This document shows, piece after piece, positions 2,291 through 10,806 of a DNA stretch of 33,015 bases. The translations under genes were made by a program, and so were the position numbers. Where the stretch lies: positions 1 to 33,015 of the forward strand of contig JAGUVT010000039.1 of assembly GCA_020062745.1 (NCBI GenBank). Reading direction: 5' to 3'. Under the pieces are notes generated by a model. It searched no databases, had not been told where the DNA came from, and worked only from the letters and a program-made list of their open reading frames with translations. Source of the DNA: Deltaproteobacteria bacterium. GTDB lineage: Bacteria > Bacillota > Desulfotomaculia > Desulfotomaculales > JAGUVT01. How positions within the stretch are numbered: the stretch's first letter is position 1; each line of letters starts with the position of its first letter.

Positions 2291-3478
2291 TTAGTCAATA
2301 CCTCCCGCCGCCCTCGAAACTTCCCATGCTGCTTCCGTAAATTTAAACTGTGTGCTGGTCCGGTAGGTGTCATATGCCAGACGGTAATCATCAATGAGGT
2401 GCTCGGTAAAAGGCAGCCCGCACTTCTCAAAGAATTTTTCCCAGCCGATCCGCTCGGCCCAGTCCCCGACCCGCTCGTACTTCCTGGCGTCCGCAGCGTA
2501 GACCTCAACGATTTTCTTGACGGTTTCCACCACCTCCGGAAACCGGGGGAAATTATTCGGCAGGCAGGGAACAACCACCTTGGAGAACTTGGGTTCGCTG
2601 ATCCGGTTGGAGATCTTCCCGCCGGCCAGAATCGTCACACCATCCCCTTCCTTGTCGGAAAGCGGTAGGGCCATGCACATGGTATAGCAATTGCCGCAGA
2701 ACATACAGCGGTCGTTCTTGATCTTTACCGTTTTCTTTCCGCTTTCGGTTTTTGCCGGTGAAATTGCGCCCACGGGGCAGGCGGCAATGGCCAGGGGTAT
2801 CTCACATACAGATTCGATAACCTCATCGTCCACAATGGGAGGTTTCCGGTGATAACCCAGGAGGGCGATGTCCGAACAATGCACGGCGCCGCACATATTC
2901 AAACAGCAGGCCATGGAAATCCTCACCTGGGCCGGGAGGGTCATGCTGGTAAAATACTCGAAAAGCTCATCCATAACCGCCTTGACCATCGAAGACGCGT
3001 CGGTGGCCGGAGTATGACAGTGGATGTAACCCTGGGTATGAACGATATTGGTGATACCCGCGCCGGTCCCCCCGATGGGGAACTTGTAACTGCCGGAAAC
3101 ATGCTTCCGGCTTAAGAGATCGTTTTTCAACGGCTCCACCTTGTCATAACTGTCGACCATGAATTCGATGTTGTTGCGGGTGGTAAAGCGGACATAGCCG
3201 TTACAATGTTTGTCGGCAATTTCACAAATTTCCCGCACGTGTTCAACCGTCATAAACCGGGGTCCGCCGCATCTCACGGTAAATACTTTGTCTCCCGTTT
3301 CGGAAACGTGTACTAAAATACCGGGTTCCAGTATATCATGATAGGCCCACTTGCCGTAATTCTTCTGGATGACAGGAGGTAAATACTGCCAGAAGTGACG
3401 CGGGCCGAGGTCCGTCAGCCGGTTTTCCATCGGCTTTTCCGGGTTATACCTGCCAAGTTTTTCTGTAGATAATGCCAT
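2291..3478 (-). CDS. dsrB: Dissimilatory sulfite reductase, beta subunit
   Basis: A 395-residue subunit of the siroheme enzyme that reduces sulfite in the cytoplasm. Cysteines at 154, 191/192 and 196 (in [10 protein letters not shown] and [15 protein letters not shown]) are in the siroheme/[4Fe-4S] binding region. An inserted ferredoxin domain follows, with ACPVGAIS at about 233-240 and [11 protein letters not shown] at 258-268. Length and domain order are those of a complete DsrB. The ATG is preceded by AGGAGG at 10 nt. It lies 14 nt behind dsrA, so the two subunits are made from one transcript. Nothing indicates decay, so the enzyme should be functional. Confidence 0.97.
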
Positions 3479-3492
3479 GATTTAAAAACCTC

Positions 3493-4911
3493 CTATCTCT
3501 TATGCCTTGCCCGATATTCTTTGATATCCCGGGTCCATCCGCCCGGCACATCTTCTTCCTTCCAGAAGATGTACGGGTTGGAGCGAGGCGCCTTGACCAT
3601 CTGCGGAGCAGGCGGCAGTCCGATTACTTCCAGGAACTTCTGCAGGCTGTAGCGCTGGATAAGCTCTCCCAGACGCTCGCGGTTCTTGCCTTCCTCCATC
3701 CACCATTCCCAAACCTTTTCAATGAATTCTTTAATATTATCATAAGGCGGTTCCGCTTTCATAAAAGGAACAATCAGTGTCGACATCTGCGCACCTTCCA
3801 GAATGGGCGCCTTGGCGCCGCAAAGGATACTGACGCCGGTATCTGTTCCCGGCCGCAGGGCCCTCGGCATAACGCTGAGACAGTGCATGCACCGGGTACA
3901 TTCCTTGTTATCGATCTGCAGCTTGCCGCCTTCCATCCACATGCATTGCGTGGGGCAGAGTTCGATTACTTCTTTTTGGATGTCGAACTTGCCCCAGTCT
4001 CTTCCCTTGTGGGCACCGCCGTTGGGTATTATTTCACCCCCGATATAAGCCTTGACCGCCTCCTGGTCAACCCGGATATCGTCCCGCCAGGTTCCGATAA
4101 AGGACATGTCGGCCCGGGCAATGGAAGCCACACAGCCGTTCGGGCAACCGTCAAACTTGAACTTGAACTTATAAGGGAAGGCCGGCCGGTGCAGCTCGTC
4201 CTGATAGTAATTCGTCAACTCGTAGGACATATCCATGGTATCGATACAGGCCCACTCACAACGGGACTTGCCCATGCACTCGGAAGGCGTGCGCAGGTTC
4301 GAGCCGGAACCCCCAAGATCCTGATCCAGTTCGTGAGTCAACTCAAAAAATATCGGTTCCAGTTGTTCGGTGAAAGTCCCCAGGAAAATTATATCCCCGG
4401 TGGAGCCGTGCATGTTTAAAAGGCCGCTTCCCCGGTATTCCCAGAGGTCGCACAGGGACTTCAAGAAGTTTGTATCATAAAATTTACCACCGGTTTGATT
4501 GACCCGGATGGTATGGAAATGAGCAATGGAAGGGTACTTCTCCGGAACGTCGGAATATCTGCCGATGACGCCCCCGCCGTAACCGAAAACCCCAACGATG
4601 CCGCCGTGCTTCCAATGGGTTTCCCCTTCGTCAAAGGATAGTTGAAGCTGGCCGAGCATATCCTCGACTACATCCCGCTCAATCAACATCCGGTCGGGAG
4701 CAAGTTTCCTTCTGTGCAGGGCTTCCCGCTTGGCGTCGGCCACAAAGCTGGGCCACGGACCTTTTTCCAGTTCATCTAAATCAGGAATGTCGTGCTTGAT
4801 TTTGAAATTCTTCAGTTCTTCTTCTGTGTAGTTACGCAATTCTTCATCGGAGTAAATGCGCATTTCTTCGTACTTTATTTCTTTCTGCGGCCGCTTAGGA
4901 TCTAAAGCCAT
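3493..4911 (-). CDS. dsrA: Dissimilatory sulfite reductase, alpha subunit
   Basis: A 472-residue catalytic subunit pairing with DsrB in an alpha2-beta2 enzyme. The siroheme/[4Fe-4S] motif is intact: C212 and C218 in CMGKSRCEWAC, then C256 and C260 in CPNGC. A ferredoxin domain follows (CPTQC at 319-323 and CTRCMHC at 338-344). The ATG at 4911 has GGGGGAGG about 9 nt upstream. It is first in the dsrA-dsrB-dsrD-TPR operon and is preceded by a 247-nt AT-rich intergenic region with a strong promoter. Whether the electron-supply genes (dsrC, dsrMKJOP) exist cannot be told here. The gene lies far from any sulfate-activation gene within this window. Confidence 0.97.
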   Translation of the reverse strand: MALDPKRPQKEIKYEEMRIYSDEELRNYTEEELKNFKIKHDIPDLDELEKGPWPSFVADAKREALHRRKLAPDRMLIERDVVEDMLGQLQLSFDEGETHWKHGGIVGVFGYGGGVIGRYSDVPEKYPSIAHFHTIRVNQTGGKFYDTNFLKSLCDLWEYRGSGLLNMHGSTGDIIFLGTFTEQLEPIFFELTHELDQDLGGSGSNLRTPSECMGKSRCEWACIDTMDMSYELTNYYQDELHRPAFPYKFKFKFDGCPNGCVASIARADMSFIGTWRDDIRVDQEAVKAYIGGEIIPNGGAHKGRDWGKFDIQKEVIELCPTQCMWMEGGKLQIDNKECTRCMHCLSVMPRALRPGTDTGVSILCGAKAPILEGAQMSTLIVPFMKAEPPYDNIKEFIEKVWEWWMEEGKNRERLGELIQRYSLQKFLEVIGLPPAPQMVKAPRSNPYIFWKEEDVPGGWTRDIKEYRARHKR

Positions 4912-9143: not shown

Positions 9144-10484
9144 TCATACAGCCGGCACCGCCTCCTGCACCTTCAGATAAAGCGCACACTCAAGTCTTTT
9201 ACGGGTCAATACACAGCCCAATTCGTACGGCTGGAATATAGTGCCGTTAAAGGCTTGTGCATTAGCATGACAGCCTCCGCTGCAGTAAAACTTTGCCCAG
9301 CACCCGGGGCACTGCTCTTTGTTATAGAGGTGCGCCCGGCGAAACAATCCCATCAGTTCCCGGTTAAAATCCCCGCTGGTAACATCACCCATCCGGTAAT
9401 CTTTTCTCCCAACAAACTGATGACAGGGATAAAGAGCACCGTCAGGAGCAACAGCCAGATATTCATGCCCGGCTCCGCAACCGGACAACCGCCTGGCCAG
9501 ACATGGCCCGCCCGATAAATCAACCTTAAAGTGGTAAAAGTCAACCGGCCGCCCGTTGCGGGCACGCTGTAACAATTCCCGGGTTAACCGTTCATATTCG
9601 TCTAAAACAACCGGAATGTCTTTCAGTTGCAAGGCAAAATCATCCTCTTCGGACGCCACCACTGGTTCCACGGAAAGCCGCTCAAAACCCAAATCAGCCA
9701 GATGCGAGACGTCGGCGCTGAAGTCCAGGTTGTGCCTGGTAAAAGTGCCGCGCAGGTAATAATCATATCCTTTCCGCCCGGCCAGAAAACGGCGGATGCT
9801 GTCCAGCACCGCCGTGTAGGAGTTGGAGCGCATGGCGTTGTGCACCGCCGGGCGCCCGTCGATGCTTAAGATCACGCTGATACCGTTTTGCTCCAGGTAA
9901 TCAGCCACTTCCTCCGTCAGCAGGAGGGCGTTAGTGGTAAGGGTAAACCGGAGGTTTTTCCCCGCCCGTTCCCCCTGACTGCGCCCGTAGTCCACTATTT
10001 CGTTGAGTACCGGAAAATTCAACAGCGGCTCACCGCCGAAAAAATCTATCTCCAACCGCCGTCGGCGCCCGGAACCGGCAATTAAAAAATCAACAGCGGC
10101 ACGCCCAACAGACGCCGGCATCAGTTCATCTTCCCCCCCGAACCGGCCTTGGCCGGCAAAACAATAGCGGCAACGCAAGTTGCACTTATGGGCCAGGTGC
10201 AGACAGAGGGCCTTGAGCACGCTCTCGCCGGTACGGTTATAGCCTTCCGGGTAAGGGTCCGGGCTGTAAAGCAGCCCTTCTTGCATCAGGCGCTCAATTT
10301 CCGCCAGGGCATCCGCTATTTCCCCGGAATCATAACGGCCTTCATATTTCGCCACCAGTTCGGGCAGTTTCAGGCGAGGGTAATCCTCAATCAATGCCCA
10401 GGCCAGGTCGTCCACCTCATGGACGGCACCGCTGTGCACATCCAGCACAATTTTTACCCCGTCAAAGATAAACCGGTGAATCAT
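9144..10484 (-). CDS. scfB: SCIFF peptide thioether maturase, radical SAM/SPASM
   Basis: A 446-residue radical SAM enzyme that installs a thioether cross-link in the small SCIFF peptide. The N-terminal ~75 residues look like the PqqD-type peptide recognition domain. The radical SAM cluster motif CNLRCRYC is at 101-108. The C-terminal SPASM region has the expected auxiliary-cluster cysteines (GCGAGHEYLAVAPDG, YPCHQF, EQCPGCWAKFYCSGGCHAN). Length is normal for the family. Its ATG overlaps the stop of the precursor gene as ATGA (10481-10484), so the two are translationally coupled, and a terminator follows at 9073-9097. The mature product's role is not established in any organism. Confidence 0.92.
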   Translation of the reverse strand: MIHRFIFDGVKIVLDVHSGAVHEVDDLAWALIEDYPRLKLPELVAKYEGRYDSGEIADALAEIERLMQEGLLYSPDPYPEGYNRTGESVLKALCLHLAHKCNLRCRYCFAGQGRFGGEDELMPASVGRAAVDFLIAGSGRRRRLEIDFFGGEPLLNFPVLNEIVDYGRSQGERAGKNLRFTLTTNALLLTEEVADYLEQNGISVILSIDGRPAVHNAMRSNSYTAVLDSIRRFLAGRKGYDYYLRGTFTRHNLDFSADVSHLADLGFERLSVEPVVASEEDDFALQLKDIPVVLDEYERLTRELLQRARNGRPVDFYHFKVDLSGGPCLARRLSGCGAGHEYLAVAPDGALYPCHQFVGRKDYRMGDVTSGDFNRELMGLFRRAHLYNKEQCPGCWAKFYCSGGCHANAQAFNGTIFQPYELGCVLTRKRLECALYLKVQEAVPAV

Positions 10485-10624
10485 TTCTTAGCGCAGGACT
10501 GGTTGCCTACCGTTATGGAAGTTTTACAGGCGGACTGGCAGGAAGTCTGGCACTCGCCGCACCCCTCTCCCTTGGTACCGACAGACAACCGCTTGGTGTT
10601 AACCGTTTTGATATGTTTACCCAT
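10481..10624 (-). CDS. scfA: SCIFF ribosomal peptide precursor, five-cysteine variant
   Basis: A 47-residue peptide beginning MGKHIKTVNTKRLSVGTKG and ending TVGNQSCAKK. The family name means six cysteines in forty-five residues. Here cysteines are at 22, 25, 29, 33 and 44 (GCGECQTSCQSAC), and the usual fifth one (KTSC) is isoleucine (KTSI, residue 37). In the Clostridium thermocellum pair CteA/CteB the cross-link joins a Cys to a Thr five residues later; C33 and T38 keep that spacing, so the cross-link remains possible. A strong ribosome binding site (AAAGGGGG) and a promoter lie upstream. The gene overlaps its maturase gene by 4 nt. Confidence 0.93.
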   Translation of the reverse strand: MGKHIKTVNTKRLSVGTKGEGCGECQTSCQSACKTSITVGNQSCAKK

Positions 10625-10646
10625 GAACACCTACCCCCTTTAGCCC

Positions 10647-10675
10647 ATTATAAAAGATTAAAAAAGACGGCGCAA
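10647..10675 (-). promoter_or_regulatory. Promoter of the SCIFF operon
   Basis: A perfect TATAAT (10647-10652) lies 17 nt from TTGCGC (10670-10675) on the minus strand. The predicted start is near 10640, giving a leader of about 16 nt that carries the ribosome binding site. The -35 touches the left arm of the long inverted repeat at 10675-10728. Confidence 0.6.
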
Positions 10676-10728
10676 CAAGAAAAGCGTTTTACCGCCTTTT
10701 TGCTAGAACAAGGAAACGCTTTTCTTGT
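10675..10728. repeat. Perfect 15-bp inverted repeat upstream of scfA
   Basis: ACAAGAAAAGCGTTT (10675-10689) and AAACGCTTTTCTTGT (10714-10728) are exact reverse complements around a 24-nt loop. It lies between the methyltransferase stop (10807) and the SCIFF start and overlaps the SCIFF -35 box. In the minus direction it is not followed at once by a T run, though TTTTTT comes 14 nt later. It could terminate the methyltransferase transcript, act as an operator for scfA, or do both. Confidence 0.6.
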
Positions 10729-10806
10729 CCGCACAGCATAGTTTCCTATTCAACAAAAAAGAATACTTAAGACTTTGCTTGCTGATCGTTTGATAACAAT
10801 CGTTGC

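Follow-up and report, generated by a model that had tools for sequence, protein, structure and literature searches.

The fifth cysteine of SCIFF peptides looks, in the genomes compared here, like a two-state site (residue 37) that is occupied either by cysteine or by a few aliphatic residues (isoleucine, leucine, and rarely valine). The window, which is the whole stretch of 33,015 nucleotides that was analysed, carries what is, judging from its genes, an ordinary two-gene SCIFF ranthipeptide system whose peptide has isoleucine where the fifth of the six cysteines usually stands. This system probably makes a working SCIFF with one thioether formed from Cys33, in which residue 37 would be neither donor nor acceptor but a cysteine or a small aliphatic residue.

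The SCIFF locus

The precursor peptide translates as MGKHIKTVNTKRLSVGTKGEGCGECQTSCQSACKTSITVGNQSCAKK (47 residues, minus strand, 10624..10481). It contains five cysteines (Cys22, Cys25, Cys29, Cys33, and Cys44) and isoleucine at position 37, and the candidate residues for the thioether of a ranthipeptide, which joins cysteine to a non-alpha carbon, are all present (Cys33, Thr35, and Thr38). The peptide passed both SCIFF models, with 76.3 bits against NCBIfam TIGR03973 (cut-off, 50) and 75.3 bits against Pfam PF13165 (cut-off, 27), which confirms the original prediction of a 47-residue SCIFF with five cysteines and Ile37. The family is named for six cysteines in about 45 residues, and the window peptide has five in 47; its gene adjoins that of a SCIFF maturase (TIGR03974). 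By these models, it is classed as a five-cysteine variant of SCIFF because the curated model already accepts such members, with 13 further examples among the genomes of the class. The two open reading frames (ORFs) overlap by ATGA at 10484..10481 (Table 1).

Table 1. Features of the SCIFF locus in the window
Feature	Position	Strand	Basis
scfA, SCIFF precursor peptide, 47 aa	10481..10624	minus	Translation; TIGR03973; PF13165; sole copy in the genome
Codon 37, ATA (Ile); TGY (Cys) in most relatives	10514..10516	minus	Read from the sequence
scfB / rSAM_six_Cys, SCIFF maturase, radical SAM + SPASM, 446 aa	9144..10484	minus	TIGR03974; CteB structure match
Likely leader region of scfA: -10-like TATAAT and G-rich AAAGGGGGTAGG ribosome-binding stretch before ATG	10625..10660	minus	Direct reading

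The -10-like TATAAT upstream of scfA was absent from the list of the promoter consensus scan. A strong hairpin with a stem of approximately 16 pairs (GACAAGAAAAGCGTTT / AAACGCTTTTCTTGTT) lies at 10672-10740, between a methyltransferase gene and the SCIFF gene. The hairpin is followed by T-rich DNA and a -10-like TATAAT, and its fold has a z-score of -2.7; it probably serves the methyltransferase gene as a terminator. Elsewhere in the window, two adjoining NIR_SIR-domain genes (2291-4911) resemble the subunits of dissimilatory sulfite reductase; therefore, the organism probably reduces sulfate or sulfite.

The genome is a draft of 148 contigs, in which no second SCIFF, six-cysteine copies included, was found. 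Its draft state would favor reading Ile37 as a sequencing error or as a mark of a decaying gene, which is nevertheless extremely improbable. The ATA codon is three substitutions away from TGT or TGC, and a single sequencing error cannot account for it. Moreover, the same kind of replacement is fixed in whole clades, including genomes assembled as single contigs. These three base changes, together with the recurrence of the replacement in many genomes, rule out sequencing error as the source of Ile37. Decay is opposed by the scores of the peptide and the maturase, which lie far above the model cut-offs, and by the core of the window peptide (residues 28-42), which is otherwise unchanged. A broken maturase, as a sign of decay, was not seen at the window locus.

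Residue 37 across genomes

The family HMM detected a SCIFF in 103 of the 113 genomes of the class to which the window genome belongs. Position 37 was cysteine in 89 of them, isoleucine in 7, and leucine in 7; the fifth cysteine, which the original prediction had regarded as normally invariant, was thus replaced in 14 of the 103. Synonymous codons encoded these residues (ATT, ATC, and ATA for isoleucine; CTN and TTR for leucine). Cys22, Cys25, Cys29, Cys33, Cys44, Thr35, and Thr38 were identical in all 103 peptides, and within residues 28-42 variation occurred at positions 37 and 40 only.

The phylum was surveyed in a sample of 399 genomes with the motif QSACKTSxT, where x is position 37. The motif was found in 311 genomes, and the census covers only peptides that keep these flanking residues. 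An NTN codon was present at x in 26 of the 311 (isoleucine in 14 and leucine in 12); valine, methionine, and phenylalanine did not occur among these 26 genomes. VVN and TMN codons were each found in 0 of 311. The remaining 285 genomes had TGN, a class that takes in TGG (Trp) unseparated from the cysteine codons, and all of the matches listed were TGY (Cys). Phe, Ser, Tyr, Arg, and Gly, the one-step neighbors of cysteine, were absent from position 37 in the 311 motif-bearing genomes, and isoleucine and leucine, which are two or three base steps from cysteine, recurred there.

A species-wide scan for the same replacement in a slightly longer motif (one genome for each of 84,980 species) returned 37 stretches, of which 36 were genuine SCIFFs with isoleucine, leucine, or valine. 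The other match (L158, from Aestuariibacter) had no SCIFF frame and was rejected as a chance hit. The carriers include Moorella thermoacetica, M. mulderi, M. stamsii, M. sulfitireducens, Thermanaeromonas, Desulfovirgula thermocuniculi, Vulcanibacillus, and Tepidibacillus. The peptides with valine came from metagenome-assembled genomes (MAGs) of Defluviitaleaceae and Oscillospiraceae. The original prediction would have given way to isoleucine being common across related genera, and this is what was observed: the 13 genomes sampled from the Moorella family all have isoleucine at position 37, as do three genera of family f15, which is in the same class as the window genome, and others have leucine. 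We found no earlier description of a cysteine/aliphatic site in the review literature, although one may already exist elsewhere.

SCIFF is usually treated as a clostridial peptide, and it is retained in most Clostridia. Two Bacilli, Vulcanibacillus modesticaldus (L152) and Tepidibacillus decaturensis (L159), have a SCIFF together with a maturase-like ORF, and both peptides contain Ile37.

A cysteine gained elsewhere in the peptide was considered as compensation for the one lost. It was rejected as a general rule, as an extra cysteine was present in only 3 of the 46 distinct non-Cys peptides (L069, L088, and L142).

Repeated origin of the replacement

A tree was built from 154 different maturases, leaving out the peptide sequence. 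The state of position 37 (Cys or non-Cys) required 10 changes on the best tree, at least 8 of them on strongly supported branches, compared with 37 changes on average for shuffled labels. The window maturase was grouped with 13 six-cysteine maturases from another family of the same class (support, 96), and it was the sole carrier there. On this tree, the window lineage went from cysteine to isoleucine independently. The original prediction presented the loss as informative. It is one of at least eight independent changes; therefore, the window genome is not special. The further suggestion that the fifth cysteine is dispensable is supported at the evolutionary level by its recurrent replacement. 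Because the change recurred at least eight times, the fifth cysteine is, on the evidence of tree and census, replaceable, but by a few aliphatic residues only.

In the Moorella family, the residue is uniformly isoleucine and is spelled ATT, ATC, or ATA. A constant residue with three codons suggests that this isoleucine is kept under selection while its codon drifts.

Several carriers of the replacement are thermophilic (Moorella, Thermanaeromonas, Desulfovirgula, Vulcanibacillus, and Tepidibacillus), which would fit an adaptation to heat whereby thermophiles exchange a labile cysteine for an aliphatic residue. Carriers also have a slightly higher IVYWREL share in their maturases (0.415 vs 0.401). 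However, a comparison of independent pairs gave 3.3 in the same direction against 0.8 in the opposite one, which is not significant (median p, 0.375). Composition proxies for heat or GC showed no significant association with the replacement. Moreover, thermophilic relatives with a six-cysteine SCIFF are known, and the carriers of the valine type are the MAGs of Defluviitaleaceae and Oscillospiraceae. Adaptation to heat is therefore a very unlikely explanation.

The maturase

The window maturase scored 581.8 bits against TIGR03974 (cut-off, 425). Its nearest solved structure is CteB (5wgg/5why; E, 3.5e-152), to which residues 1-441 were aligned. Twelve cluster cysteines (94, 101, 105, 108, 328, 336, 354, 392, 395, 401, 405, and 424, with Met as residue 1) were constant over the 154 maturases, whatever the type of the peptide, in an alignment in which a few sequences have gaps toward the C-terminal end. 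The original prediction that the cluster cysteines are all kept thus holds. Cys101, Cys105, and Cys108 form the radical SAM motif CxxxCxxC, and the nine further cysteines, including those of the SPASM cluster, are kept as expected for ScfB.

No significant compensating residue was found in the maturase when 103 residue states were compared over 8 independent pairs. The most promising candidate for a contact is maturase residue 205 (9870-9872, minus strand), which is located just before LSIDG. Isoleucine for valine at this residue accompanies the replacement in about four of the eight pairs and almost never runs against it, but the association is not significant. In the peptide, a change of Gly40 to Ser was rejected as a partner of the replacement, with a difference in only about two of the eight pairs. 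Nine loci of the class (L024, L032, L055, L058, L070, L075, L079, L087, and L089) have a clear SCIFF with no maturase-like ORF directly downstream in the examined stretch, which may reflect a different gene order or too short a stretch.

The thioether and the possible role of residue 37

The six-cysteine peptides CteA and Tte1186a each form one thioether from the fourth cysteine (PMC8326336), and for CteA this single thioether was found both in vitro and in E. coli (PMC8326336, PMC8172795). The acceptor was first reported as Thr37, and in CteA produced in E. coli it was later placed at the gamma carbon of Thr34 (Hudson 2019, cited in the reviews PMC8326336 and PMC8172795). In the numbering of the window peptide, Cys32-Thr34 of CteA corresponds to Cys33-Thr35, Thr37 to Thr38, and Cys36 to position 37. 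The literature is therefore divided between Cys33-Thr35 and Cys33-Thr38, and both threonines are kept here. Cys33 and Thr38 are retained as originally predicted; their designation as the CteA pair follows the first report only, which was followed by the re-assignment to the equivalent of Cys33-Thr35. Residue 37 adjoins the candidate acceptor Thr38 and lies two residues past Thr35.

A probable course of maturation can be outlined. The RRE domain of the maturase would bind the N-terminal leader of the peptide, and the enzyme would then form one thioether from the fourth cysteine (Cys33) to a threonine, with Thr35 (gamma carbon) as the most likely acceptor and Thr38 as the alternative. Residue 37 would neither donate nor accept the sulfur, and it would not be essential as an iron-sulfur ligand. 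The fact that cysteine, isoleucine, leucine, or rarely valine is allowed there suggests a hydrophobic contact; the side chain probably packs on a hydrophobic surface that belongs either to the maturase or to a partner acting later, such as a protease, an exporter, or a receptor. No measured product of a five-cysteine SCIFF was found in the review literature. A search for a solved structure of a SCIFF peptide returned none; the sole match, epoxyqueuosine reductase (E, 0.64), was at the level of chance.

The fifth cysteine may have some role in most lineages because it is strictly kept there. It could serve a second step in the six-cysteine lineages (another thioether, a disulfide bond, or a site for metal binding or redox chemistry), which the lineages with isoleucine or leucine would have dropped, so that they make a different product, an outcome that the original prediction also considered. 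The strict retention and the lack of intermediate residues agree with such a step, as does the count of free thiols: after one thioether, five remain in a six-cysteine peptide and four in a five-cysteine peptide, so that by arithmetic the two cannot pair their thiols alike. However, only the one thioether from the fourth cysteine is known for CteA in vitro and in E. coli, no maturase residue tracks the replacement, and mere loss of the cysteine should yield varied residues, not just isoleucine, leucine, or valine. We regard a lost second step as unlikely.

Position 37 might also be a functional switch. Cys-type and aliphatic-type SCIFFs would then be two different signals or redox products, between which lineages have crossed at least eight times with no other residue seen, perhaps together with a receptor or partner. 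A quorum-sensing role and a link to sporulation in solventogenic clostridia have been reported for SCIFF peptides (Chen 2020, cited in PMC8326336 and PMC8102284), which leaves room for a switch. We consider it quite improbable, and nothing in the present data favors it over a tolerant site.

The natural five-cysteine peptides single out the fifth cysteine as the one that a general model of the mature peptide must not require. The residues on which such a model may depend are the other five cysteines and Thr35/Thr38, constant throughout the class. The in vivo form and role of SCIFF are still debated. The peptides of Moorella and Desulfovirgula are ready natural variants for locating the thioether.

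Comparison with known systems

CteA/CteB (thermocellin) from Clostridium thermocellum and Tte1186a/Tte1186 from Caldanaerobacter are described by the same family models as the window pair. The fourth cysteine and both candidate acceptor threonines of CteA and Tte1186a are kept in the window peptide, and the maturase aligns with CteB (5wgg) almost from end to end. In contrast, the fifth cysteine of CteA (Cys36) is isoleucine in the window peptide. In the PapA/PapB (freyrasin) system, the maturase likewise belongs to this superfamily of radical SAM/SPASM ranthipeptide enzymes (the match reached 246.5 bits, short of the cut-off of 340), but six Cys-Asp cross-links are formed in a different precursor (PMC8172795), and the pair is not in the same family as the window SCIFF system.

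The SCIFFs of the Moorella family have five cysteines and isoleucine at the same place as the window peptide. However, they represent a separate change on the maturase tree, and they differ in the leader and in the residues around the first two cysteines (CGNCHV against CGECQT). Desulfovirgula thermocuniculi, Peptococcaceae SCADC1_2_3, and BRH_c8a belong to the same class as the window genome, and their SCIFFs also combine five cysteines with an aliphatic residue 37, but this residue is leucine instead of isoleucine, and their maturases are located elsewhere on the tree.
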